From an uncultured Bacteroidota bacterium (lineage in GTDB: Bacteria; Bacteroidota; Bacteroidia; Bacteroidales; GWA2-32-17), in NCBI GenBank assembly GCA_903837285.1, contig CAILUD010000192.1, forward strand, positions 1 to 36,175: a DNA stretch of 36,175 nucleotides, written 5' to 3'. Position numbers and translations under genes: made by a program. The notes below the pieces were generated by a model, which had not been told where the DNA came from, made no database searches, and saw only the letters and a list, made by a program, of their open reading frames with translations. Below are positions 649-19,625 of the stretch, one piece after another (within the stretch, counting starts at the first letter, position 1; each line of letters begins with the position of its first letter).

Positions 649-933
649 ATGGAAGAACAAAAAAAGAAAATGGTACCAGGTGCAATTTCTGCAATGATCT
701 GGGGTATAATGTCTTTAGCTGCAATGGCTGCTTTTGGATGGATTGCTGCAATTGTAGCATTTGGAAAACGTAAAAAAGCTTTAAATCTTTATGAAAGTAA
801 TCCAACTGAGTATAGCCCAAAATCATTAAGTATTTTAAAAATGGCTAAAACTTTTAGCATAATTGGACTAATTGTATCCGCTTTATTTACCTTATATTAT
901 TTAGTAATTATAGTTTTAGTTGCAGGATTATAA
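649..933 (+). CDS. Small two-to-three-helix membrane protein, CCC-motif/DUF4190-like, paralogue 1
   Basis: A 94-residue protein with two clear hydrophobic segments (about residues 13-36 and 66-92) joined by a basic, polar loop containing GKRKKALNLYESNP. The layout, and the loop pattern KxALxLYxxNPxxYxxKSLxxLxxAKT shared by all three local copies, resemble the Bacteroidota 'CCC motif membrane protein'/DUF4190 families. In those families the first helix carries three consecutive cysteines; here that place reads MAAFGW, with no cysteine. No function is established for the family. It is the first of three tandem paralogues (next at 1215 and 1565), has its own promoter and is followed by a strong terminator, so it is probably transcribed alone. 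Confidence 0.8.
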   Translation: MEEQKKKMVPGAISAMIWGIMSLAAMAAFGWIAAIVAFGKRKKALNLYESNPTEYSPKSLSILKMAKTFSIIGLIVSALFTLYYLVIIVLVAGL

Positions 934-954
934 TTAAAGATTAAATTTATTGTG

Positions 955-994
955 ATGAGAGTTAAAGCTTAAGGCCTTAACTCTCATTTTTTTT
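955..994 (+). terminator. Rho-independent terminator after paralogue 1
   Basis: An 11-bp perfect stem (ATGAGAGTTAA at 955-965 with TTAACTCTCAT at 977-987) is followed by a run of eight T residues. It lies 22 bases after the stop of the preceding gene. Confidence 0.85.
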
Positions 995-1029
995 ATGTTT
1001 TATAATAATATAATTTAACAGTTCATTTT

Positions 1030-1060
1030 TTGATTTTCAATATTTAATTAAATAACTTTG
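1030..1060 (+). promoter_or_regulatory. Bacteroidota-type promoter for paralogues 2 and 3
   Basis: TTG at 1030-1032 and TAACTTTG at 1053-1060, separated by 20 bases, fit the -33/-7 consensus. The start codon of the next gene is at 1215, so the leader would be about 145 bases long and would contain the large palindrome at 1095-1168. Confidence 0.6.
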
Positions 1061-1094
1061 ACTTGTAAATTAGCTATTAATACCAATTTTGATA

Positions 1095-1168
1095 ATAAAA
1101 TAGCCCACCAATTGTCCCTCTTTTTTGAAGAGGGTAGGGAGAAGAATAAAAAAATTGGGCTATTTTAT
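1095..1168. repeat. Nested palindrome in the leader of paralogue 2
   Basis: The outer arms ATAAAATAGCCCA (1095-1107) and TGGGCTATTTTAT (1156-1168) are perfectly complementary over 13 bp. Inside them, CCCTCTT (1116-1122) pairs with AAGAGGG (1128-1134). The 74-base unit would fold into a long hairpin in DNA or RNA. It could be a miniature mobile element or a leader structure. Confidence 0.7.
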
Positions 1169-1214
1169 AATCAGCTGCGGCGCATAAATGGCATAACAAA
1201 TTAATTACATTATT

Positions 1215-1550
1215 ATGGAAGAACAAAATTCAAATTTTGGTGGAACGGTTGGAAAAAAACAAATTGTTCCTGAAGCTATGTCTGCAATGATTTGGGGAAT
1301 AGTTTCTTTGGCCACAATGGCTATGTTTGGTTTTATCGCTTCTTTTGTAGCTTTTTCAAAAAGACGAAGAGCATTTGCACTTTATAACGAAAATCCGGCT
1401 AATTATAATGAAAAGTCGCTTAATATTTTGCGAACAGCAAAAACATGCGGAACAATTGGGCTAATTGCTTCAATAATTTTTACATTTATATGGATAGCTT
1501 ATATTGTACTTATTGTTTATTTAATCTCAATGTCTAATAGTTATTATTAA
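1215..1550 (+). CDS. Small membrane protein, CCC-motif/DUF4190-like, paralogue 2
   Basis: A 111-residue paralogue of the protein at 649. The hydrophilic N-terminus (about 18 residues, with NSNFGGTVGKK inserted relative to the other copies) is followed by PEAMSAMIWG, a first membrane segment at about residues 22-44, the basic loop FSKRRRAFALYNENP and a second long membrane segment at about 75-105. The cysteine triplet of the CCC-motif family is again absent (MAMFGF), although a single cysteine precedes the second helix (AKTCGTIG). It ends 14 bases before the next paralogue and the two are almost certainly co-transcribed. Function unknown. Confidence 0.8.
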   Translation: MEEQNSNFGGTVGKKQIVPEAMSAMIWGIVSLATMAMFGFIASFVAFSKRRRAFALYNENPANYNEKSLNILRTAKTCGTIGLIASIIFTFIWIAYIVLIVYLISMSNSYY

Positions 1551-1564
1551 AAAATTAATATAAT

Positions 1565-1888
1565 ATGGAAGAACAAAAAGTAAAAAAGCAAATAGTACCT
1601 GGAGCATTTTCTGCAATGTTTTGGGGCATCTCATCAATTATGGCAATGTATATGTTTGGATGGGTAGCTTCAATTGTCGGATTTTCAAAACGTTCTGCTG
1701 CATTAAAATTATATGAAGAAAACCCTTCAATGTATAGCGAAAAATCGTTAAGCATTTTACGTACCGCAAAAACATGTAGTATGATAGGTTTATTTGTTTC
1801 AATTTTTTCTACAATAATATTAGTGTTGTATATTGTTTTTATGGTTTGGATGGCAACGCGTAATTATTATTCGCCATATTATTACTAA
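1565..1888 (+). CDS. Small membrane protein, CCC-motif/DUF4190-like, paralogue 3
   Basis: A 107-residue third copy, beginning MEEQKVKKQIVPGAFSAM and closely matching paralogue 2 in the segment around AKTCSMIGL. Two membrane segments are expected at about residues 16-38 and 68-95, and the tail is rich in tyrosine and asparagine. The first helix reads MYMFGW where the CCC-motif family has its cysteines. The last 58 bases of this gene plus 37 bases beyond the stop are duplicated at 2076-2170. Tandem expansion suggests a dosage or specialisation role at the membrane, but nothing in the sequence identifies it. Confidence 0.8.
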   Translation: MEEQKVKKQIVPGAFSAMFWGISSIMAMYMFGWVASIVGFSKRSAALKLYEENPSMYSEKSLSILRTAKTCSMIGLFVSIFSTIILVLYIVFMVWMATRNYYSPYYY

Positions 1889-3688: not shown

Positions 3689-5566
3689 TTAAGGAACCAA
3701 AGAATTATATGTTTTTCCTTCATTTATTAATTCCTGAATTGAACATCTTAAAAGAGCTCTTACATATTCAGGATTATGCATACCGCAACTGTAATCTTTA
3801 ACTGCTAAAACAAAGTTAAAATATGCACCCATTTCACCCTTAGTTAATGATGGGAATTTTGGTAATGCATTGTTTGTTGCAATCTGTGCTGGTGTCCATG
3901 TTCCGCCTGGAGCTATATTTCTGAACTGACCTGTTAAGTTAACTCCGCTTGTATTGTAAATATTAAAACTACCATTATAACCTGAAGTTGTAGTTGCAAA
4001 ATATCTTTTGTTTGTAGTGTAATCATTATCTTTTTTCAATAATGAAACATTATTTCTTTGTAACATACGATACAATGAATCTAATTTTGCATTAATTTCT
4101 GCTTTAAATGCAACTAAAGTTGCATTTGCATTTGCCATTGGAGTACTATGGCAACCAGCAACATTACATCCTTTGTAGTTAATAATTTTTGAATAAGAAG
4201 TACCTCCTGCTGAAGTGTCATACATTGCAACTGCAAATGAGTGACCGCCTACAAATTCAGTTGGAGCAGCCATATGACAGCTTTTACATGTTGCATCTAC
4301 AGCATGTGCAGAAACCTGTGACATAGTTGCAGTATATCCGAACTGAACACCACCTTGGCCAGAAAATATAGCACCTGCAGGACCATAATGGAAAGGAGAA
4401 GATGTTGAAGGAATATATTTATTTGGATATGCATTACCAACTGTACTATCATAATATATCTGAGTTGGATTAGCTGCTAAGTCATAATAATCAACAGAGA
4501 ATCCGTTGTTTTTGTTTGGTAAAGTACCTAAAGTATTAGTTGCTAAAGGACGTGGTTGATGACATTTGATACAAAGATTACTTGAACCGCCATCCTGAGC
4601 TGCGTTAATTGTTTTAGGAACCCATAATGCTGGAGGAGTTCCACTAGTTACAGCTGGATATAATGCCATTGGAACTGGAGCAACTGTATATAAATGCATT
4701 GAATCTGAAGCAGCGCCTTTATGGCATGTGAAACATGAAATTTTACCAGGAATATCTTGCATGCCTGATGAAGCAGCAGCACTTGCAGCATATGCATATG
4801 TAAATGTTCCTGAAGTAGCGCTGTATGTATATGATGGAACAACAGCAGCGTCAACTACTGAGTGGAAACCTTCGTTTGAGTGACAACCTGCACAACCTGT
4901 AGAAAAACCTTCTCCAGCAGCTAGTTCAGCGCCTTCAGCATGTTTTGAAAATTCAATTGAATATTGAGCAGAAGCAACTGAATTACCTAATGCAGAACCA
5001 GATGTAGCTGAATTATGATCATGACATTCTAAACAGTTTACTGATAAAACACCTGCTGGACCTTGTGGGCCTACTGCACCGTCAGCACCTGCAGGACCTA
5101 CTGGACCTGCTGGACCTACTGCACCGTCAGCACCTGCTGGACCAGCTGGGCCAACTGCGCTATTTGCAGCAAATAAAGCATAAGGAACACTTGAAAGTAA
5201 TCCTGTTGATGTAATTGTATAAGCTGTTCCACCTAAAGGATCAGTTTCTGTTTTAATTGAATAAAGACCTGTTCCCCATGTAATAGCAGCCATTGTACCA
5301 GAAACTGGTGTTCCTGCACCAATCTGCATTGTTACTAATCCGTTAATGTCTGTTGTTAAAGTTTGAGTTTCAACATAAACTGGAGTAGCGCCATCAAGAA
5401 TACTAATTTGCATTCCTACTGTTGTGTTTGTAATAAGTGCATTACTAGTGTTACGAATTACACCCTGATATCCAATTTTTTGAGGAGCTTGTCCGAATGC
5501 TGTTGAAAACATGCAGGACAAAAATAGCGTTGCAGCTATACTTAAATTACGTACTGTTTTTTTCAT
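3689..5566 (-). CDS. Six-haem c-type cytochrome with collagen-like segment
   Basis: A 625-residue exported protein. A signal peptide (residues 1-26, ending AFGQ) is followed by a beta-rich N-terminal domain (about 27-136, containing KIGYQGVIRN) that Bacteroidota often attach to collagen-like or surface proteins. Residues about 139-172 are Gly-Pro-Ala/Gly-Ala-Asp collagen-type triplets. The rest carries five CXXCH haem sites near residues 177 (CLECH), 224 (CAGCH), 277 (CFTCH), 331 (CIKCH) and 426 (CKSCH), plus CNVAGCH near 467, a CX4CH variant. The C-terminal region has the HNPEYVRALL motif (about 595), a pattern common at the end of multihaem cytochromes. There is no T9SS sorting tail. It starts six bases after the upstream T9SS gene and belongs to that operon. 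Role inferred: extracytoplasmic electron transfer; partner and reaction unknown. Confidence 0.85.
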   Translation of the reverse strand: MKKTVRNLSIAATLFLSCMFSTAFGQAPQKIGYQGVIRNTSNALITNTTVGMQISILDGATPVYVETQTLTTDINGLVTMQIGAGTPVSGTMAAITWGTGLYSIKTETDPLGGTAYTITSTGLLSSVPYALFAANSAVGPAGPAGADGAVGPAGPVGPAGADGAVGPQGPAGVLSVNCLECHDHNSATSGSALGNSVASAQYSIEFSKHAEGAELAAGEGFSTGCAGCHSNEGFHSVVDAAVVPSYTYSATSGTFTYAYAASAAASSGMQDIPGKISCFTCHKGAASDSMHLYTVAPVPMALYPAVTSGTPPALWVPKTINAAQDGGSSNLCIKCHQPRPLATNTLGTLPNKNNGFSVDYYDLAANPTQIYYDSTVGNAYPNKYIPSTSSPFHYGPAGAIFSGQGGVQFGYTATMSQVSAHAVDATCKSCHMAAPTEFVGGHSFAVAMYDTSAGGTSYSKIINYKGCNVAGCHSTPMANANATLVAFKAEINAKLDSLYRMLQRNNVSLLKKDNDYTTNKRYFATTTSGYNGSFNIYNTSGVNLTGQFRNIAPGGTWTPAQIATNNALPKFPSLTKGEMGAYFNFVLAVKDYSCGMHNPEYVRALLRCSIQELINEGKTYNSLVP

Positions 5567-5572
5567 TGTTTA

Positions 5573-6043
5573 TTAGTTTTTGTTGATTTTAAAATTTTTA
5601 GATTCATTTTTTTCGTTAATTACTTTAACGAAATAAGTGGCACTTGCTAAGTCTCTCATTAAAATACTGGTTTCGTTCGACTCCATTTTACTTGTAGCCA
5701 AAAGCCTACCGTCAATGTCATAAAGCTCATACCTTAAATTTTCAACACTACTACCCTCAACTCTAATTACAACATTCTCGGTTGTTGGATTTGGGTAAAG
5801 AGATAAGTTAACGTTCAACTCATTTGCTGTTGCAATGATTGTGAAAATTTCATAAGGTTGTTGAAGCCCTTGAGTAACCTGGCCTGCGCCAGTAGCAGTA
5901 ATGTAGTTAGTTTCACCAATGGTATAAGTAACCGAGCCTCCGGCTCCGGTTGCAGTTCCACCAGTACTAACCGTGCCTTTTTGGGCAAAGAGAACAGTTC
6001 CCAATCCCAGCAGACAACAAATCACGAAAATTGTTTTTGTCAT
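5573..6043 (-). CDS. Small secreted protein with T9SS type A sorting domain
   Basis: A 156-residue protein. Residues 1-21 form a signal peptide (ending LFAQ). A glycine- and threonine-rich stretch (about 22-65, containing GGSVTYTIGE and QGLQQPYEIF) is a type often seen directly before T9SS tails. From about residue 80, LYPNPTTENVVI begins a type A sorting domain of about 75 residues, with the expected YDIDGRLL and final YFVKV segments. The protein is expected to pass the outer membrane through the T9SS. Apart from the tail there is little globular domain, so it may be a small surface or anchor protein. The multihaem cytochrome gene follows after six bases. Confidence 0.85.
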   Translation of the reverse strand: MTKTIFVICCLLGLGTVLFAQKGTVSTGGTATGAGGSVTYTIGETNYITATGAGQVTQGLQQPYEIFTIIATANELNVNLSLYPNPTTENVVIRVEGSSVENLRYELYDIDGRLLATSKMESNETSILMRDLASATYFVKVINEKNESKNFKINKN

Positions 6044-6103: not shown

Positions 6104-7615
6104 TTATTTTACAAGTACTATTTTATGTTTCTGATTATTTATTTTGATAAAATAAACACCATTTGAATAGTTACTTAAATCAATTGTTTTTACCGAGCCA
6201 TTTTTCTGATTTAAATTTTCATTATAAATAACTTTTCCGGTAAAATCTTCAATTGATAAATTATCATTAATAGAATTCTCAAATGAAATATTTACTACTC
6301 CCTTTGTTGGATTTGGGTATACTTTAATTGCAGAGTTTGCAGAAATTTCATTTACACCTATATATATATACGATAAAGTATTTGAAGTAGAAGTACAGCC
6401 ATTGGCATCTGTAACTATTGAATAGTAATTTCCATTTGTTGTTGGAGCATAAGTGGCAGCTGTTGCCGATGCAATAATTCCAGATGATTGCTCATACCAT
6501 TGATTGCCTAATGTAGCTGTTGAGCTTAAAGTTCCCGTTGTTTCAGTAATGGTAACTGGAGCAACTGTATAAACGCCTGTATTAAAAGTAGAAGAAGTTG
6601 CTGAGGTTGGGTTTGCGCAAGCTGCATTTGATGTCATGGTACAAACAACTGCTTGTCCGTTTGTGAAAACAGAAGAATATGTGCTATTTGTTCCAACAAT
6701 ATTTCCATCAACTGTCCACGAATAAACAGGAGTTCCACCGTTAGTAGGAGTTGCAGTAAGTAATACTGAAGTTCCTGGGCAAACAGTTGTTGCGCTTGGA
6801 GAAATTACAACAGAAGGCACAACTGCAGGATTAACTGTTATGTAATTAGTCATAGTAGAAGTATTTGGTCCACCAGCATTTGATGCTGTTAAGGCAACGG
6901 TGTGGGTTCCGGCAGTTGCAAAAGTTACAACTGGATTTTGTAATGTTGACGTAGCTGGAGTTCCGCCTGCAAATGTCCATGACCATGAAGTTGGAGTGTT
7001 AGTACTTTGATCAGTAAATGTTGTGCTGCCATTTGGACAAATAGAAGTATTGTTAGCGCTAAAACTAGCAACCGGTGCAGCAACTGAAGGAACCCAATCG
7101 AGAACCATACCTGTAAATAATCCAGCCACATCGGCAGGTGTTAAATGAACAGCAGAGGTTCCTTTATTGAACGAAACAGTTGTGTTAGCTGTATTGGTTG
7201 TTGTTCCCCAGGTAAATTCAATGCGTACATTATATATTCCGTCTGCTACTACTGCTGATGATACATCGGTTGCGTTCCATGTAATTGCAGAAGGTGTTCC
7301 GTAACTTGTTAAGGAAGCTCCTGTTGTTGCATCAACTACGTTTAAAGCAGAGCTTGCTTTCCATAAAGGAAGGTGATTGTGTGATCCTGTAGCATGCGAG
7401 TCGGCACGTTTAAGTTTTGTTTTAACAAAAACATTAGAACTGTTTTCAATCCAGATTACAAGATAATGATCCAATCCGTAGCTTGCGCTATGTGAAGTTG
7501 GAGTTACTGTAAATGTTAAAGTGCCAGGTGTTTGGGCGCAAACACTTGAAGTAAATAAAGCGCTTGAAAAAAACGCTATAGCTGCAAATAAGTTTTTCAG
7601 TAAAAATGTTTTCAT
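6104..7615 (-). CDS. DUF2271-like, PKD and T9SS type A sorting domain protein
   Basis: A 503-residue exported protein with a signal peptide (residues 1-28, ending SVCAQ). The N-terminal part (about 30-165) resembles DUF2271, a predicted extracytoplasmic domain: HYLVIWIENSSNVFVKTKL, then LPLWKASSALNVVDATTGAS and a closing GIYNVRIEFTW. A PKD domain follows (about 185-265, with WSWTFAGGTP), then an Ig-like unit (about 265-345) and a spacer. The C-terminus, from VYPNPTKGVVNI at about 430, is a T9SS type A sorting domain. The protein should be displayed on or released from the cell surface. It is the promoter-proximal gene of the run leading to the multihaem cytochrome, with 60 bases to the next gene. 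The DUF2271 call rests on pattern recognition and needs a profile search. Confidence 0.75.
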   Translation of the reverse strand: MKTFLLKNLFAAIAFFSSALFTSSVCAQTPGTLTFTVTPTSHSASYGLDHYLVIWIENSSNVFVKTKLKRADSHATGSHNHLPLWKASSALNVVDATTGASLTSYGTPSAITWNATDVSSAVVADGIYNVRIEFTWGTTTNTANTTVSFNKGTSAVHLTPADVAGLFTGMVLDWVPSVAAPVASFSANNTSICPNGSTTFTDQSTNTPTSWSWTFAGGTPATSTLQNPVVTFATAGTHTVALTASNAGGPNTSTMTNYITVNPAVVPSVVISPSATTVCPGTSVLLTATPTNGGTPVYSWTVDGNIVGTNSTYSSVFTNGQAVVCTMTSNAACANPTSATSSTFNTGVYTVAPVTITETTGTLSSTATLGNQWYEQSSGIIASATAATYAPTTNGNYYSIVTDANGCTSTSNTLSYIYIGVNEISANSAIKVYPNPTKGVVNISFENSINDNLSIEDFTGKVIYNENLNQKNGSVKTIDLSNYSNGVYFIKINNQKHKIVLVK

Positions 7616-8245: not shown

Positions 8246-8953
8246 ATGAAGAATATTTTCTTTTTTTTTATATTTTCTTTTTCATTTTTAATTACCCTTT
8301 CGCAGGTTGATCAAAGTATGTATTATAGCATTCACTCAAAAGCATTGCCTTCATCGAAAGCTGGTACTATGCAGGATTTTAACAAAGCAATAGAACAAAA
8401 CCCAAATGATGATATTGCCTATTTAAATAGAGGTAATGCTAAATTTCAACTTGAGGATTACAGAGGTGCAATACAAGATTATAATAAGGTAATTGAATTA
8501 AAACCCGATTCTGCAAATGGATATTATAACCGTGGTATTGCAAAAGAAAACCTAAATGATTATAAAGGAGCAATTCCTGATTTTGATAAAGCTATTAAAA
8601 TTGATAAAAATAGTGCAAGTGCATATTATAATCGTGGCTTAGCTAAGCATAAAATGCAGGATTATAATGCTGCAATTCTTGATTATGACAATGCTATTAA
8701 ATTAGATTCAAAATATTCTGATGCATATACAAATAGAGGATCTGTTAAAACACAAATTAAAAGTTATTCAGAAGCAATTACTGATTTAAATAAAGCAATA
8801 GAACTGAATCCCAAAAACTCAAATGCGTATTATAACAGAGGACTTGTTTATTATTATTTAAACGACAAAGAAGGTTGTTGTATAGATTTAAGTAAGGCTG
8901 GTGAGTTAGGATTTATGAAAGCATATGATTTAATAAAACAATATTGCAACTAA
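8246..8953 (+). CDS. Secreted TPR-repeat protein 1
   Basis: A 235-residue protein with an N-terminal hydrophobic export signal (MKNIFFFFIFSFSFLITLSQ), predicted to lie in the periplasm or be secreted. From about residue 43 it is built of five tetratricopeptide repeats of 34 residues with the usual pattern, for example YYNRGIAKENLNDYKGAIPD. Such repeats are protein-binding scaffolds. The C-terminus ends in a cap shared with the next two genes: EGCCIDLSKAGELG, then helical residues, then a cysteine two residues from the end. It heads a three-gene operon (gaps of 53 and 36 bases). The binding partner is unknown. Confidence 0.85.
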   Translation: MKNIFFFFIFSFSFLITLSQVDQSMYYSIHSKALPSSKAGTMQDFNKAIEQNPNDDIAYLNRGNAKFQLEDYRGAIQDYNKVIELKPDSANGYYNRGIAKENLNDYKGAIPDFDKAIKIDKNSASAYYNRGLAKHKMQDYNAAILDYDNAIKLDSKYSDAYTNRGSVKTQIKSYSEAITDLNKAIELNPKNSNAYYNRGLVYYYLNDKEGCCIDLSKAGELGFMKAYDLIKQYCN

Positions 8954-9006
8954 TCTGAATATTGTTAGTAACAAAAAATACATTAAATGAAATAAATATT
9001 TTTTAA

Positions 9007-9915
9007 ATGAAAACTACATTTTTTTATTTGTTTCTTGCTTTATTTTTATTTTCGTGTCAATCTAACGGCGATAAAAATGTTATTTCAGGAAAAGAAAAAT
9101 ATGAGAAAGGCGATTTGCAAGGTGCAATTCTTGAATATAGTCAGGCTATAAAAGATAATCCCGATAATGTTGATGCATACTATGAAAGAGGCCTGACAAA
9201 AGATGATTTGGGCGATTATAAAGGAGCCATTGAAGATTATACTAAGGCTATTGAACTCGATCCCAAATTAGTGGAAGCATATAACAACAGAGGTTTTGCA
9301 ATGAATTCGTTGAATGAATTTGAAAGTGCAATTGCAGATTACAATAAGGCAATTGAAATAGATCCTTTGTTTGCAACTGCATTTAATAATCGAGGATTGG
9401 CAAAAAATAATCTGGGTGATAATAAAGAAGCTATTGCCGATTATACTAAAGCAATAGAGATTAACCCCGATTATGCACTTGCATACTATAATCGTGGAAG
9501 TGTGAAAGATGAATTAAATGATATACAAGGTGCAATAGAAGATTATAACAAATCAATTAAACTCGATCCTAAGAGTGCATTAACATATAATAATCGTGGA
9601 TTTGCAAAGAGTGAACTTGAAGATTATAAAGGGGCTATCGAGGATTATAATATTGCCATTAAATTAGATCCTTCTTCCTATCAGGCATACAATAACAGAG
9701 GTTTAGCTTTTGATTATTTAGAAGCATACCAAAGTGCAATTGAAGATTATAACAAATCACTTGAAATTAAACCCGATTATTCTATTGCATTTGCAAATAG
9801 AGGATATGCAAAATATTTAATTGAAGATATAGAGGGTGCCTGTGCCGACTGGACTAAAGCAAGCGAATTAGGAATTACAGATGTTAATGAATCTCTTCAA
9901 AAGTATTGCAAATAA
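9007..9915 (+). CDS. TPR-repeat lipoprotein 2
   Basis: A 302-residue protein. The signal sequence MKTTFFYLFLALFLFSC ends in a plausible lipobox (LFSC), so the mature protein is probably lipid-anchored at Cys17. Seven or eight TPR units of 34 residues follow, almost without interruption (repeated core AIEDYNKAIELDPK and YNNRGFAK). Acidic residues dominate the helix surfaces. The C-terminal cap is EGACADWTKASELG, with a final cysteine one residue from the end, as in its two neighbours. The long, regular repeat array suggests a scaffold in the envelope. The function is not identifiable. Confidence 0.85.
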   Translation: MKTTFFYLFLALFLFSCQSNGDKNVISGKEKYEKGDLQGAILEYSQAIKDNPDNVDAYYERGLTKDDLGDYKGAIEDYTKAIELDPKLVEAYNNRGFAMNSLNEFESAIADYNKAIEIDPLFATAFNNRGLAKNNLGDNKEAIADYTKAIEINPDYALAYYNRGSVKDELNDIQGAIEDYNKSIKLDPKSALTYNNRGFAKSELEDYKGAIEDYNIAIKLDPSSYQAYNNRGLAFDYLEAYQSAIEDYNKSLEIKPDYSIAFANRGYAKYLIEDIEGACADWTKASELGITDVNESLQKYCK

Positions 9916-9951
9916 AAAGTACCTAAACTAAATGTAAATAATAAATTTAAC

Positions 9952-10353
9952 ATGAAATGCATTTTAATTTTACTATTTGTTAATATTTTATTTATAAATT
10001 GTTATTCCCAAACAGGTGAAGATTTCTTTAATAAAGGATTTGAAAAATATAATCTTAAAGATTATAAAGGTGCAATAGCTGATTATAGTAAAGCAATTGA
10101 AATTAATCCTAACATTATAGATGTATATAAAAACCGAGGGCTTGCAGAAATTAGACAACTAGACTACAAAAGCGCAGTTGATGACTTTAGTAAACATATT
10201 GAAAAAAACTCTAAAGATGCCGATGCATTTTATAATAGAGGACTTGCTAAAGTTCTTTTAAAACAAAAGGAAAGTGGTTGTCTGGATTTAAACAAATCTG
10301 GTGAGTTAGGTCATGAAAAGGCTGAGTTAGCAATTAAAAGAAATTGTAATTAA
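9952..10353 (+). CDS. Short secreted TPR-repeat protein 3
   Basis: A 133-residue protein, the shortest of the three paralogues. The signal peptide ends near NCYSQ, so signal peptidase I cleavage is more likely than lipidation because the residues before the cysteine do not fit a lipobox well. Two to three TPR units follow (EKYNLKDYKGAIADYSKAIE and a second near FYNRGLAK). The C-terminal cap SGCLDLNKSGELG and the penultimate cysteine match the other two proteins. It lies 36 bases after the TPR lipoprotein gene and is probably the last gene of the operon. Confidence 0.85.
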   Translation: MKCILILLFVNILFINCYSQTGEDFFNKGFEKYNLKDYKGAIADYSKAIEINPNIIDVYKNRGLAEIRQLDYKSAVDDFSKHIEKNSKDADAFYNRGLAKVLLKQKESGCLDLNKSGELGHEKAELAIKRNCN

Positions 10354-13064: not shown

Positions 13065-16000
13065 TTATCTAATTATATTTACAATGCCTGATTTTATATG
13101 TTGAATTTTATCGCCATCATAATATTCAACCATCCAGGTATAAGTTCCAATTGGAGCAGTTGATCTATCTTTTACTGTGCCATTCCAACCATATTTTGCA
13201 GGTTGATCTTCGTCATATTTATCAGTTTTATAAATTACTTCACCCCATCTGTCAAATATGTAAAGTTGAAAATCATTTGCACTAATACCATTTCCAATAA
13301 TATAAAACACATCATTAATATCGTCAAAGTCGGGTGATATTGCATTTGGTGCATAGAATGTATATTCATCACGTATTACAATTACATTATTAGCTGTGTC
13401 TGTGCAATTCTTTTCGGTTATTGCAATCAGGTAAACAATATAGTTTCCTAAACCAGGATACCAATGAACTGGGTTTTCAATACTAGAAGAATCACCATCT
13501 CCAAATGACCAGATATACGAACTTGCAAATTCTGATAAGTTTGTAAAAACAATCTGAGGTTTAATAATACTAGCAGTTGTTGGGTCGGCAATAAACCTTG
13601 CATTAGGTGCTGGCCAAACACTAATCATTTCTGGATGTAGTAAAGAGCTAGTACAGCCTTGAGCAGAGGTAACTGTTAATGAAACATCAAAAATACCATC
13701 CTGGGTAAATTCGTGTATAGGGTTCATATCATACGAAATGGCATTATAACTAGCATCACCAAAATTCCAGAAGTATGTTTGTCCAGGTAATGAGGAACCA
13801 GAGTTAAAAGAAACTGTTAGAGGTTCACAGCCCGATACGGTATCGCTAACAAAGCTTACAGGAGGATTTGGATTAACTGTAATGTAAACTGAATCGTGAG
13901 CAACTGAGTTACAACCATCTTTTACATATAAATATTGAAGTCCAGAAGTTGCAGGTGAAATATAAACAGGTGGAATTAATATATCGCCTTGCGGATTGTA
14001 AACCATATATGGAGGACCGCCTCCCTGACTAATACTAACACTTAGCTGAGCAGTATCTCCGGGGCAAATTGAAGTTGGAGAAGCTATAACATCAACTACA
14101 AGTGGTAGCGAAACCAGAACGCTAACAATAACTGAATTACTTGTACATCCACGGGAATCGGTTACAGATACTGTGTAATTTGTTGTGGTTAATGGGTTCA
14201 CGCCAATTGACGGATTAGATGCAACTCCATCCCAATAATAAGTATAGGCAGGAGTTCCACCTGTTGAGTTAGCTGTTAGGTATGCATATTCGCCAGGGCA
14301 AATAGAATGTGTTGTAATTGCTGAAACTATAATTGCAGATGGTTCAAAAATAGTAGTCGAACCGGTAACTGTACATCCATGGGCATCAGTAACTAAAACT
14401 GTATAAATTCCCCCTGGTAAACCAGTGAAACTCCCCACAGTTTCAATTTGAGAACCCAAAGTATAAAGATATGTTGGAGTCCCGCCATTTGCTTCAACTG
14501 TTAAGGTTCCATTGTTTGCATCATGACAAGTAAGATTAGTTTTAGTTAAACTTGAAATAACTAATTGAGCAGGTTCTCCAATTATTGCTTGGGCAGTAGC
14601 AGTACACCCAAATATGTCAGTTATTGTTACATATTGTGTTCCATTACAAAGTGTATTGTTAATTGCTGCATTAGATGTTCCCGAATTCCATTGATAGCTA
14701 TAAGGAGGTGTTCCGCCTGATGGAACTGCAGTTGCCGATCCGTTACATTCAAAAAAGCAATTTGCGTCAATAATATTTATTGTACTAGCTGTTACTTGTG
14801 TAGGTTGTGATATATTAGCAGTAGTAGTATTTGTACATCCGTTATTATCAGATATGGTAACAATATACGAACCAACACAAAGATTATTAGTTGTTGCTCC
14901 GTTTGCGCCTCCTGGCCATGAATATGAATAAGGTGCAGTTCCATTTGATGCAATTGCAGTGGCACTTCCAGTGCATTGGCCAAAACAGTTAATATTTGTT
15001 GTACTTGAAATTGATGCTGTAACTGGAGTAGGTTGAGTTATTATTACTGTTGTTGTAGATGTACACATATTTGCATCAGAGGTTGTTACGATGTAATTGC
15101 CAGCACATAAACCAATGGCGCTAGCGGTCATTGCTCCACTTGGCCATAAATAGCCATATCCGCCTGGTAAACCTCCATTTGCAGAAACTGTTGCCATTCC
15201 ATCACAAATTCCATTACATGATGTGTTTGTTGTTGAAACAATTTGTAAGTTTACTTGAGCAGGTTGAGTAATAATAAATGGACTAGTAACTGTGCAGCCA
15301 TTAAAGTCGGCTACGGTTACTGTATAATTTCCAGCTGCTAAATTAGAAGCAGACGAAGCGCTACTAACACCTCCGGTCCATGCATAAGTATATGGTGCAG
15401 TTCCACCGCTTACTGTTACTTGTGCTGTTCCTGAACCGTTGTTATAACAAGTTAAATTAGTTTGATTAGGAACTATCGAAATGTTATTTGGAGAAGTTAC
15501 AGTAAAAGAATAGCTTTCTGTACATCCAGGTTGATCGGTTACAGTTCCTGAATAGTTGCCAGCAGTAAATGGTGGTCCGGTAACATTGGACCATGTATAT
15601 GAATATGGTGGTGTTCCACCACCAGGGACTGGGCTTGCTTGTCCGGTAGAACTTGCACAAGGTAAGGTTCCAACATTAATAGTGTAGGTTAAATCAGGAG
15701 GGTTATTAATTTGTACAGTTGTTATAGGACTTAAACAATGGTTGTCGCTAACCTGTAATGTTATAGTTTGTAATCCTGAACTGCCCCAGTTTACTATATA
15801 AGGCCCGGCATCAATTCCAGAAACTATTGTTCCACCACCAAAGTTCCATGTATAAGTTGATCCTGCACCTGTAATGCCTGTATAAGTAATAGTTGAATTT
15901 TGTCCAAAACAATTTATTGGAGTTGCAGTAAATGTTGATGTTGGATTTGCAGTAAATGTTACTGTTGCAATATCTGTACAAGTTGTTCCAGCGGCATTGG

Positions 16001-17309
16001 TAATGCTCCATGTTAAATTATATGTTCCGGAAGTTGTTGCAGTAACTAATGCCGTTGCTGAATTTGTTGGGTTAATTGTTATACCAGCAGGACCAGTCCA
16101 TAATAAATTATAATCGCCAGCTTGAGTTATAGCAGCCATGTTAGTACTTAAGCCGCATGTCGAAATATCTAATCCGGCATTTACAATGCAACCGCAATTT
16201 TGTACAGTAACTGGTACTGTAATAGTAGATGTGCATGTTCCTCTGGATGTTGTTAGGGTTACATTATATGTGCCTGCTGTTGCCCAAGATATATTATATG
16301 GACCAGCACCCGATCCGGAAACAACTGTTCCGCCTCCCCAGTTCCATGTATATGTATCTGTTGCAACTCCGTTGCCGGTATATGTAATTAACGCATTTGA
16401 TCCGGAACATACTGGATTTGGGTTTACTGTAAACGAAGAAGTTGGAGTGTCGTATACTGTTACCAATATGGTTTGTGTTGCATTAAAACCTCCATTTGAA
16501 ATTGTTACTACAATTGAGTGATTGCCAACTGTTGGATAGTACATTCCCGGATCCTCAACACTTGAAAAAAGAGTGCCGTTATCTGTCCATGTATATGCAA
16601 TACCTGGTATTGGACAAGAAATTTCAACGTTATCTAAACCCCAATTATCATAACTATTACCACTTGTTAAATCCTGATACCATCTAAATTGTGTGCTTGC
16701 CCCTGCTGCTGCAGCAGGAACGGATAAACAGTAATTGTTCCATTGAGTCATGCAGTCATCATATCCGCCAGCACCTGGACAATTAGGGTCGTCAGGAGGA
16801 TAATAATGAATGTCAATCCATGATGCACCACCGTTAGTAGAATATTGTACGTGTACACCTTCGTTAGTTAAATCGGGTCCTTCGCATGGAGCGGCATTAC
16901 TCTGAATAGAATATACCATATCAAAGCAAATTTGGCAAGCAGCAGAAACAGAATATGGAACTGTTGTTACTGCTCTCGGGAAATCAACAGCATCACCTAT
17001 CCATAAATATGGTGTGCCGTCATAAACGCTTGTTGCAGATCCTACATATGAACAAGGATTATTGAATTGAGGGTCACAGTTTGAAGCCCAGCCTGTGCCA
17101 ATAGTAGAAGTATTAAAATCATTGTTCATTAGATAATTTGAGCATGAACCTGTTGCTTGTAAATCAACACCAGTTCCTAAGCAAATGGTTAATGGACCTA
17201 CCGGGGTTGCAGAAACTGTACATTGTGCAAGGATATTATTAGTAAATAAAGTTGCAGATAGCAAACTTATTATTACTACTAAAACTTGTTTTTTATAGGT
17301 TGATTTCAT
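13065..17309 (-). CDS. Giant SprB/PKD-repeat adhesin with T9SS type B (gliding-associated) C-terminal domain
   Basis: A 1414-residue exported protein with a signal peptide (residues 1-29, ending ILAQ). Residues about 40-230 form a beta-sandwich-like domain containing VHVQYSTNGGASW and RWYQDLTSGNSYDNWG, a pattern reminiscent of reelin-type repeats. PKD/Ig-like units follow to about 545. About six or seven SprB repeats occupy roughly 550-1010, each with a cysteine start, GxATVxxxGGTPPYxYxW and a closing GCT. Further PKD domains (FWNFGDAS, IWSFGDGDSS) lie at about 1110-1300. The last 92 residues (FYAPNAISPDFDDINDVFYI, then FDRWGEVIYKT) match the type B T9SS tail found on gliding-associated proteins. 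It lies 15 bases behind a small secreted-protein gene. Role inferred: surface adhesion or gliding. Confidence 0.9.
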   Translation of the reverse strand: MKSTYKKQVLVVIISLLSATLFTNNILAQCTVSATPVGPLTICLGTGVDLQATGSCSNYLMNNDFNTSTIGTGWASNCDPQFNNPCSYVGSATSVYDGTPYLWIGDAVDFPRAVTTVPYSVSAACQICFDMVYSIQSNAAPCEGPDLTNEGVHVQYSTNGGASWIDIHYYPPDDPNCPGAGGYDDCMTQWNNYCLSVPAAAAGASTQFRWYQDLTSGNSYDNWGLDNVEISCPIPGIAYTWTDNGTLFSSVEDPGMYYPTVGNHSIVVTISNGGFNATQTILVTVYDTPTSSFTVNPNPVCSGSNALITYTGNGVATDTYTWNWGGGTVVSGSGAGPYNISWATAGTYNVTLTTSRGTCTSTITVPVTVQNCGCIVNAGLDISTCGLSTNMAAITQAGDYNLLWTGPAGITINPTNSATALVTATTSGTYNLTWSITNAAGTTCTDIATVTFTANPTSTFTATPINCFGQNSTITYTGITGAGSTYTWNFGGGTIVSGIDAGPYIVNWGSSGLQTITLQVSDNHCLSPITTVQINNPPDLTYTINVGTLPCASSTGQASPVPGGGTPPYSYTWSNVTGPPFTAGNYSGTVTDQPGCTESYSFTVTSPNNISIVPNQTNLTCYNNGSGTAQVTVSGGTAPYTYAWTGGVSSASSASNLAAGNYTVTVADFNGCTVTSPFIITQPAQVNLQIVSTTNTSCNGICDGMATVSANGGLPGGYGYLWPSGAMTASAIGLCAGNYIVTTSDANMCTSTTTVIITQPTPVTASISSTTNINCFGQCTGSATAIASNGTAPYSYSWPGGANGATTNNLCVGSYIVTISDNNGCTNTTTANISQPTQVTASTINIIDANCFFECNGSATAVPSGGTPPYSYQWNSGTSNAAINNTLCNGTQYVTITDIFGCTATAQAIIGEPAQLVISSLTKTNLTCHDANNGTLTVEANGGTPTYLYTLGSQIETVGSFTGLPGGIYTVLVTDAHGCTVTGSTTIFEPSAIIVSAITTHSICPGEYAYLTANSTGGTPAYTYYWDGVASNPSIGVNPLTTTNYTVSVTDSRGCTSNSVIVSVLVSLPLVVDVIASPTSICPGDTAQLSVSISQGGGPPYMVYNPQGDILIPPVYISPATSGLQYLYVKDGCNSVAHDSVYITVNPNPPVSFVSDTVSGCEPLTVSFNSGSSLPGQTYFWNFGDASYNAISYDMNPIHEFTQDGIFDVSLTVTSAQGCTSSLLHPEMISVWPAPNARFIADPTTASIIKPQIVFTNLSEFASSYIWSFGDGDSSSIENPVHWYPGLGNYIVYLIAITEKNCTDTANNVIVIRDEYTFYAPNAISPDFDDINDVFYIIGNGISANDFQLYIFDRWGEVIYKTDKYDEDQPAKYGWNGTVKDRSTAPIGTYTWMVEYYDGDKIQHIKSGIVNIIR

Positions 17310-18070: not shown

Positions 18071-19429
18071 TTACTCAATAATCAGCTTTTTCCTATATAC
18101 AGTATTGCAATTCGTAATACTTATAAAATAAACTCCCGAAGAGAAATTAATAGAATTAAAGTTTATTCTTTTTGCTGAAATTTTTTCTTGTATTAAAACT
18201 TTCCCGCTTATGTCTGAGATTATTAAATTAGAGTTTTCAAAATAATTCTCAACAAAATCAATTGTGAAAATATTTTTTGCAGGATTGGGGTAAACCAAAA
18301 TGTTTTTATCAGATTCATTATTACTTATATCAGTACAATTTTGAAATGTAACGATTAAAGTATCTGTACTTGAACAATCGCTAGAGTTTGTAACTGTCAC
18401 ATAAATATTTACTGATCCTATACCAATTCCTAATGAATCAAATGTTGTATAATAATTAGTTTGTCCATTAGACCAAATGTAAGAACTGTAAATATTAGGA
18501 ACCGATAAAGTGATTAATTGATCTGCACAGATTATAGTGTCATTTCCTAAATTTATTTCGGGAGCAAGTGCCACATTTAAATAAACAGTATCAAAACTTA
18601 TTGAATTACTGTCGTTATAAGATGCAATTATTTCATGATATCCTGCACTGGGATAGTATAATACTGGGTTTTGATTATGAGAGAATAATACTCCATTATC
18701 ACTCCAGTTATATGTTGCTGAAGAGCTGTTTGTTGTGTCCGCCTGGAAAATAGTAACATTATCTATGCCCCAATTATCATAACTATTGCCACTTGTTAAA
18801 TCTTGATACCATCTAAATTGAGTGTTGTTTCCAACTGCTAAAGTGGGAATTGTTAGGCAATAGTTATTCCATTGTGTCATACATGCATCATATCCTCCGC
18901 CTCCAACGCATAAAGTATCATCTGGTGGGTAATATTTAATGTCAGTCCAAGTTGCACCTCCGTTAGTCGAATATTGAACATGTACGCCTTCATCTGATAA
19001 ATCTGGCCCTTCGCATGGTGCACCATTGCCCTGTATGGAATAAACCATATCAAAACAAATTTGACAAGCAGCAGAAATAGCAAACGGAACTGTAGTTATT
19101 GCTCTTGGAAAACTAACTGAATTGCCAATCCATAAATATGGAGTTCCGTCATATACGCTGGTTGCCGAAGATGTATAAATACAAGGATTATTAAACTGCG
19201 GATTGCAATTAGCCGACCAAATAACCCCAAGGCCACCCGAGTTAAAATCATCATATAAAATATATGGACCACAAGGAATAGAATTAAAGTTAACTGATTC
19301 TCCATTACATATTATAGAATCTGTCGGTGCTATGTTGATTGTACTTTGTGAAATTGAGAGTTTTGTGTTAATGCTTGAAATTAAAGTAAAAGTAACTAAG
19401 GCTATTATAATTCTATTTGATTTGCTCAT
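18071..19429 (-). CDS. T9SS type A protein sharing the adhesin's N-terminal domain
   Basis: About 452 residues, counted from the ATG at 19429, which opens a proper signal peptide (MSKSNRIIIALVTFTLISS); the frame extends 19 codons further upstream but those residues look non-coding. Residues about 50-230 closely match the N-terminal domain of the 1414-residue adhesin, including ICFDMVYSIQGNGAPCEGPD, VHVQYSTNGGATW and RWYQDLTSGNSYDNWG. Ig-like units follow (YNWSDNGVLFSH, YIWSNGQTNYYTTF). The C-terminus, from VYPNPAKNIFTI, is a T9SS type A sorting domain. It is therefore a surface or secreted protein built from the same domain as the adhesin but with a different export tail. A 293-base gap with a separate promoter follows before the adhesin operon. 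Confidence 0.85.
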   Translation of the reverse strand: MSKSNRIIIALVTFTLISSINTKLSISQSTINIAPTDSIICNGESVNFNSIPCGPYILYDDFNSGGLGVIWSANCNPQFNNPCIYTSSATSVYDGTPYLWIGNSVSFPRAITTVPFAISAACQICFDMVYSIQGNGAPCEGPDLSDEGVHVQYSTNGGATWTDIKYYPPDDTLCVGGGGYDACMTQWNNYCLTIPTLAVGNNTQFRWYQDLTSGNSYDNWGIDNVTIFQADTTNSSSATYNWSDNGVLFSHNQNPVLYYPSAGYHEIIASYNDSNSISFDTVYLNVALAPEINLGNDTIICADQLITLSVPNIYSSYIWSNGQTNYYTTFDSLGIGIGSVNIYVTVTNSSDCSSTDTLIVTFQNCTDISNNESDKNILVYPNPAKNIFTIDFVENYFENSNLIISDISGKVLIQEKISAKRINFNSINFSSGVYFISITNCNTVYRKKLIIE

Positions 19430-19625
19430 AATATAGTAGTATATAATCATAGTATCAATTTTACAATTAATTATTTGTCTTTCCAAATTACTCTTATGAT
19501 AATCTTTCTTTTATTAAAAAAAAAAGTGAATAATTTAGGGTAAAAAGACAGGTATTTTTAATTATGTTATTAGAAATGTAAAAATGCAATAGTCAAGTTT
19601 GTAGTTTAATTCTTATTTTTATAAC

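Follow-up and report, generated by a model that had tools for sequence, protein, structure and literature searches.

Two kinds of described surface system lie closest to the protein considered here. In Bdellovibrio, all 21 MAT (mosaic adhesive trimer) proteins share a beta-rich domain of about 130 residues after the signal peptide; trimerisation of these fibres is called invariant on the basis of six structures and models, S74 fibres are trimeric, and swapping of the tips has been proposed (PMC10769870). The words 'cytochrome' and 'heme' are absent from the main text of that paper. The second kind comprises multihaem cytochromes of Gram-positive cell surfaces, such as OcwA, a reported surface terminal reductase that has two open haems and acts on iron oxide, nitrite and hydroxylamine (PMC6703420; PMC7096707), and OmhA of Carboxydothermus ferrireducens, recovered from the cell surface and from biogenic magnetite (PMC7829351). 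A stretch of 36,175 nucleotides from an uncultured Bacteroidota bacterium (Bacteroidales, GWA2-32-17; assembly GCA_903837285.1, contig CAILUD010000192.1), hereafter the window, encodes a 625-residue protein, P0001 (3689-5566, minus strand), in which a base resembling the first kind is joined through a collagen-like tract to a six-haem core that probably resembles the second. Taken as a whole, P0001 is read here, at slightly better than an even chance, as an exported trimeric surface fibre in which a hexahaem terminal reductase has taken the place of the adhesive tip; most of the weight in these odds is carried by the predicted fold, the base and the gene neighbourhood. Each half belongs to a known kind; the literature searches turned up neither their union nor a family of hexahaem lipoproteins with a collagen-like tract. 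Nor did these searches, which covered titles and the beginnings of abstracts with most subscription journals outside their reach, return any collagen-like or trimeric multihaem cytochrome.

The gene is a single open reading frame without internal stop, and its product begins with a signal peptide (residues 1-26, 5489..5566, minus strand, as for all features of P0001), judged by eye and from alignment A2, with its probable cleavage site near AFG/Q; in that alignment, the fibre-type clade has no conserved cysteine at the lipobox position. A beta-rich N-domain of about 110 residues (27-135, 5162..5488), with strands in the predicted model and similarity to the MAT N-domain, leads into a collagen-like segment of 34 residues, GPAGPAGADGAVGPAGPVGPAGADGAVGPQGPAG (139-172, 5051..5152), made of eleven Gly-X-Y triplets and a final glycine. 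The remainder is a hexahaem core with C-terminal helices (175-625, 3692..5044), predicted to adopt an NrfA-superfamily fold and carrying the motifs CLECH (residue 178, 5021..5035), CAGCH (225, 4880..4894), CFTCH (278, 4721..4735), CIKCH (332, 4559..4573), CKSCH (427, 4274..4288) and CNVAGCH (467, 4148..4168), the first five being CXXCH and the last CX4CH. When P0001 was shuffled 5,000 times, no more than two haem motifs arose and the longest Gly-X-Y run was 6. The initial annotation, made from the sequence, had proposed such a union of a surface-type N-terminal domain, a 34-residue Gly-X-Y tract and six haem motifs in one 625-residue frame, and each of these elements is borne out, with the addition of the strand, which had been left unstated.

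The same annotation had named a frameshift or an assembly join between the collagen and haem parts as a possible artefact. Both are ruled out by the unbroken frame and by genes of identical order elsewhere, whose haem parts are 82% (G004), 60% (G001) and 50% (G048) identical to that of P0001, with L047 in a fifth genome. It had also suggested counting homologues with this domain order: there are five intact genes including that of the window, and a sixth, L046, is cut by a contig end and starts only within the collagen part. The six fibre-type genes are thus those of the window, L032 (G004), L044, L045, L046 and L047. At E <= 1e-8, a core query matched 8 of 149 relatives, 23 of 393 genomes of the order and 5 of 395 genomes of the phylum, the own genome being included in each count and only part of the core being matched in four of the 23 (G166, G268, G303, G336) and three of the five (G451, G645, G688). 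A genome scan yielded 108 relatives, of which 80 loci were retained, all from metagenome-assembled genomes or uncultured records of Bacteroidota, or with no phylum in the title; four of these loci, the intact L044, L045 and L047 and the truncated L046, represent the fibre type and correspond by sequence or coordinates to genes of G001, G048, G203 and G234, each counted once. The other 76 are of a lipoprotein type; among them, L085 and L109 have an incomplete 5' end and enter neither the tree nor the triplet counts.

A tree was built from 82 cores: those of 78 loci, of the window and of L032, plus the lipoprotein paralogues found in G004 and in the own genome. In it, the six fibre-type cores form one clade with 100/100 support. 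The core of P0001 is 36-44% identical to those of the Bacteroidota hexahaem lipoproteins (L048-L123) and, on this comparison, is a member of their family. One paralogue of this lipoprotein type lies on another contig of the own genome (C11, L021, 11147-12394); it carries 3 Gly-X-Y triplets and follows genes that, by eye, resemble haem biosynthesis genes and a Crp-type regulator.

The base of P0001 is MAT-like. The initial annotation had advised separate profile searches of the two halves, and these led from the N-domain to NF053851, the NCBIfam profile of the Bdellovibrio MAT N-domain, and gave only weak matches of the NrfA/OcwA type for the haem region of P0001. The N-domain directly follows the signal peptide and is detectably related to that of MAT: all 22 related N-domains match NF053851 at E <= 0.01, the best at 8.5e-13. 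A structure comparison yielded only middling similarity, at a Z of about 5, between it and Ig-like or pilin-type domains. A search of the own genome returned 20 matches, namely P0001, one haem paralogue, 17 further N-domains and an antisense match of the repeat, which was dropped. Fifteen of the 17 further proteins were scanned, the other two running off contig ends, and their parts overlap: S74 chaperone in 10 (9 over the cut-off), YadA head in 3, Lcl_C in 2 (one over the cut-off), collagen in 2, and a glycine-rich domain and an H-type lectin (under its cut-off) in one each. YadA heads and Lcl_C domains are trimeric. By analogy with these modules of the sister proteins and with MAT fibres, the P0001 fibre is probably trimeric. 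The likeness to Bdellovibrio MAT fibres therefore extends over the signal peptide, the beta-rich base matching NF053851, the interchangeable C-terminal tips and the S74-ended sister proteins; P0001 differs in having a collagen tract where a beta-helix shaft would be expected and a cytochrome as its tip. Collagen-like adhesins such as Scl and Lcl also join a Gly-X-Y tract to other surface domains, but their match to P0001 is confined to the repeat, and they are not known to carry haem. The own genome further contains clusters of MAT-like fibre genes (L025, L027, L029) with S74, YadA-head and collagen parts and lengths of up to 2277 residues, a large fibre repertoire for one Bacteroidota genome.

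The collagen-like tract is not peculiar to P0001, an idea that was considered and discarded. Immediately before the first haem, at least three Gly-X-Y triplets are present in 76 of 76 lipoprotein-type rows (74 loci and two paralogues) and at least five in 63, with a maximum of 13; a strict lipobox pattern occurs in 66 of these rows. Among the other predicted lipoproteins of the same loci, only 2 of 79 have at least three triplets, both where further hexahaem copies are encoded (L117_7644, with six haem motifs, and L090_11904, whose coordinates match a further copy), five further copies having been set aside ahead of this count. The comparison of 76/76 with 2/79 indicates that the tract is a trait of the hexahaem family and not a general habit of nearby lipoproteins, and the concern that all homologues might lack the collagen segment falls away, as fibre-type and lipoprotein-type relatives both have it. 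The lipoprotein relatives thus normally carry triplets ahead of the hexahaem core, and what is unusual in P0001 is the fibre base in the place of the lipid anchor. The view that no described protein has this arrangement holds in part: the architecture, with six members, is not limited to the own genome, although the replacement of the lipid anchor by a fibre base does stand out.

These tracts also bear on a different reading, in which the N-domain is a protein anchor replacing the lipid, the Gly-X-Y residues form a flexible polar spacer and P0001 is an ordinary monomeric surface reductase with six haems per unit. We regard this as rather unlikely, though it deserves consideration. It accords with the 3-13 triplets that lipoprotein relatives keep ahead of the first haem, with some tracts in which X is seldom or never proline (GTN, GKD) and which, by themselves, are probably not long or strong enough to hold a stable triple helix, and with OcwA being a dimer (PMC6703420). 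It is at odds with the sister proteins of the own genome, in which the same N-domain heads modules of trimeric type, and with the fibre-clade tracts (n=6), which have 8-22 triplets and 3-9 prolines in X, although their lengths overlap those of the relatives and proline in X was counted for just 5 of the 76 lipoprotein relatives.

Evidence for the reductase half of the fibre reading comes from the predicted fold. The full-length model has a mean pLDDT of 74 and a pTM of 0.71, with the core mostly at 80-96, and a model of the core alone reaches 79.5 and 0.85. A second-look alignment of the full-length model ranked 6qvm (Z 11.1, 242 residues aligned at 4.2 A) and OcwA (6i5b; Z 10.3, 231 residues at 4.5 A) above nitrite reductases of the NrfA and octahaem types (Z 7.3-9.0), the next unrelated row lying at 5.3; for the core alone, the values were 10.8, 10.1 and up to 8.5. 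Entry 6qvm is an undecahaem S-layer cytochrome of Carboxydothermus ferrireducens, which we take to be OmhA. Nitrite reductases also head the Foldseek matches, filling the first 23 of 29 for the core alone. In a search with the family profile, OcwA was reached at E 3.1e-5, a piecewise match with its best piece at 0.0039 and photosynthetic cytochromes next at 0.0053, and a C-terminal G(V/I)HN motif aligned with OcwA at low score. Against PF02335, which represents the NrfA family, one lipoprotein relative, L105, scores 35.5 bits and so passes the cut-off of 24.1, and P0001, L032 and L045 lie under it. We assign the predicted core to the NrfA superfamily with fair confidence, and to an OcwA-like place within it with less. 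Membership of the outer-membrane decahaem cytochromes MtrC/OmcA was rejected on PF22113, for which P0001 scores 26.9 bits against a cut-off of 30; none of the fold matches listed is a chain titled MtrC or OmcA, an absence that on its own rules nothing out.

OcwA (Thermincola potens) and 6qvm are alike to P0001 in the predicted fold of the haem core, and both are proposed surface terminal reductases. They differ in having 9 and 11 haems instead of six and in belonging to Gram-positive cell walls, and the portions of their descriptions consulted mention neither a fibre base nor a collagen tract for either. NrfA-family nitrite reductases are periplasmic enzymes. They share the core fold with P0001 (Z 6.6-9.0) and are pentahaem or octahaem proteins, most NrfA having a CXXCK catalytic haem (PMC6703420), unlike the hexahaem P0001. 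HAO and MccA are trimeric and could be precedents for trimers of this fold, although they are given no weight as evidence here. Where the initial annotation had offered an electron conduit or a surface redox enzyme, the predicted fold thus favours the second half of that proposal, a terminal reductase at a fibre tip, over the first.

The histidines of the core separate the fibre clade from its relatives. All 69 rows of alignment A3 keep the six haem motifs and five histidines outside them (209, 393, 421, 442 and 597 in P0001) without exception. Four residues past motif 3, all 64 lipoprotein rows have a further, sixth histidine, which none of the five fibre-type rows has, and in alignment A1 the fibre rows, L032 included, show a five-column gap at its place. 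By their sequences, the lipoproteins could be bis-histidine at every haem; in the fibre clade, which lacks the sixth histidine, either one haem must stay open or a substitute ligand must serve it. The count alone is no proof, because histidines near an open haem in OcwA are not ligands (PMC6703420).

An opened haem could serve catalysis, and P0001 might be a surface enzyme for a soluble substrate, such as nitrite, hydroxylamine or a sulfur oxyanion, and not for mineral respiration. The NrfA-type predicted fold, the loss of the distal histidine in the fibre clade and the two open haems of OcwA, with its nitrite and hydroxylamine reduction, all lean this way. We nevertheless judge this reading improbable: no CXXCK catalytic haem motif occurs in the P0001 sequence, all six motifs ending in CH; a replacement ligand for the lost histidine is possible (H291 or M290); and a surface fibre would be an odd site for a nitrite reductase.

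A comparison of three of the genes points to exchange between base and tip. The base of P0001 (27-135) is 93% identical to that of L044 and 61% to that of L032, and the core is 62% (176-480) and 53% (481-625) identical to L044 as against 79% and 88% to L032; the gene that follows downstream matches the one after L044 with 88.5% DNA identity. The best recombination breakpoint lies at residues 140/141, at the start of the collagen tract (5146..5147, minus strand), by a maximum chi-square search in which none of 2,000 permutations scored as high. Its place is uncertain, anywhere up to residues 151-210, because that stretch is about equally near L044 and L032. Identity among three taxa is insufficient as proof of exchange, and trees with further taxa were built: the base tree pairs P0001 with L044, and the core tree pairs it with L032, each with 100/100 support. 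The permutation test takes no account of linkage or uneven rates, and it is the conflict between the two trees that carries the conclusion that base and tip modules were exchanged near the collagen tract. The five haem-tipped bases group in the base tree with only 88/76 support. Like the architecture, its conservation, the MAT-like base and the fold class of the core, the exchange rests on sequence comparison and prediction.

Put together, these elements suggest the following course. The signal peptide would direct P0001 to Sec export, six c-type haems would be attached in the periplasm, and the MAT-like N-domain would anchor the protein at the outer membrane and set up the trimer. The collagen-like tract would act as a short stalk, near which modules are exchanged, and the outer end of each chain would be an NrfA/OcwA-type hexahaem core, most likely a terminal reductase at the surface, which would take electrons from outer-membrane cytochromes and hand them to an acceptor outside the cell, possibly a mineral, a humic or soluble compound, or a partner cell. 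Surface location, electron transfer and acceptor are what we infer, as is the trimer, on whose assumption the figure of 18 haems depends.

Several results weigh against this reading. P0001 reaches 30.3 bits at full length and 34.9 bits for residues 1-135 against NF053851, under the curated cut-off of 60 bits, and for this reason it is not filed as a MAT member. It also lies below the cut-offs of PF02335, PF22113, PF14522 and PF01391, the last being the collagen family, where P0001 has 22.3 bits against 27.2 and its homologue L047 exceeds the cut-off with 32.8. The collagen tract is short, and no beta-helix shaft is seen in P0001; residues 117-176, where one would be expected, are largely collagen-like with pLDDT under 50, and a single-chain model cannot reveal an intertwined shaft. 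Foldseek gave no match at E <= 0.001 (best 0.017 at full length and 0.0044 for the core), and neither 6qvm nor OcwA is among the best 50 of 470 matches at full length or among all 29 for the core. The haem motifs alone may account for part of the OcwA profile match, and the dimeric state of OcwA speaks against a trimer. Finally, the flanks available for the fibre-type genes show no adjacent barrel or periplasmic cytochrome genes of a conduit. It is also conceivable that the fibre is mainly an adhesin, or a binder of a neighbour's redox protein, with the haem core as a binding surface or haem store and electron transfer secondary, as several other proteins with the same base look adhesin-like. 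The invariance of the six motifs and the five further histidines across the 69 rows is what electron transfer would lead one to expect, and we hold this last option to be very improbable.

The lipoprotein relatives offer a view of the partners such a core may have. Flanks of 5 kb on both sides were available for 43 of the 76 lipoprotein-type loci (L085 and L109 included; Pfam names taken from examples). These contain a Crp/Fnr-type regulator in 39, a DUF5777 barrel in 38, a cytochrome b561 in 37, a heptahaem protein with a C-terminal hydrophobic stretch in 36 and a monohaem protein in 35, the barrel, heptahaem protein and b561 occurring together in 36. The cluster, so placed by gene comparison and prediction, looks like an outer-membrane route ending in the hexahaem lipoprotein, its direction and function being inferred. 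Compared with P0001, the lipoproteins share the haem core and the Gly-X-Y tract ahead of the first haem and differ in their lipid anchor, the retained sixth distal histidine and a position mostly beside the DUF5777 cluster. A Bacteroidota metagenome-assembled genome from an anode community has a Bacteroidetes_1 cluster, with six multihaem genes and a barrel, proposed as an uncharacterised cluster for extracellular electron transfer (PMC8258643); that it is the same as the DUF5777 cluster would be a guess. DUF5777 together with a cytochrome was not found in the literature searched. The lipoprotein family with its collagen-like stalk and barrel-cytochrome cluster is a candidate outer-membrane electron route in a phylum on which the published accounts consulted offer little. 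A further locus of the own genome (contig C85, L161, 2643-12919) encodes a DUF5777 barrel with 7-, 16-, 19- and 5-haem proteins and is a candidate outer-membrane electron route; that its parts feed electrons to P0001 at the surface is a guess.

Directly upstream of the P0001 gene lies a small protein with a type IX secretion tail (5573..6043, minus strand). A similar small gene is directly upstream in L032/L124, L045 and L047 as well, the tail having been scored in the window and L045 only. Adjoining it, in the window and in G004, is a DUF2271-like protein, which in the window (6104..7615, minus strand) also has PKD similarity, a type IX tail and the motif TGAS. The window protein scores 23.8 or 26.6 bits for DUF2271, just under the cut-off of 27.3, and its G004 counterpart scores 28.0. 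DUF2271 is flavinylated by ApbE at an [S/T]GA[S/T] motif (PMC8238504). The G004 protein shares TGAS, and a look-alike downstream of L045, recognised by eye and with no Pfam DUF2271 match at E <= 0.001, has TGST at that place; the own genome contains one ApbE match. L045 and L047 have CcsBA-type cytochrome assembly genes in their vicinity. A second DUF2271-like protein of the own genome (contig C1, L163, 6223-8766; 24.6 bits, under the cut-off) has the motif TGAT and stands beside two small proteins that resemble cupredoxins by eye.

With such a putative flavin-carrying neighbour, a bolder extension of the fibre reading can be formulated, which we advance tentatively and consider doubtful as a whole: tip swapping would have produced electrically active trimeric fibres with 18 haems that grip and reduce the same target, a mineral grain or a partner cell, with one haem made available for catalysis as its distal histidine was lost, and with the secreted flavin protein helping as relay. 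P0001 would join adhesive trimeric fibres and extracellular electron transfer, fields that have so far been separate; it suggests that these Bacteroidota can mount a redox module on a fibre otherwise used for grip, and the domain exchange suggests a way of fixing how far from the cell surface a redox centre sits.

Elsewhere in the window, three tandem genes (649-1888, plus strand) encode small membrane proteins that resemble one another, with lengths of 94, 111 and 107 residues, and three neighbouring genes encode TPR-like proteins of differing lengths (8246-10353, plus strand). Two secreted-looking proteins (13065-17309 and 18071-19486, minus strand) have a nearly repeated N-terminal stretch (PQFNNPC ... 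SATSVYDGTPYLWIG).

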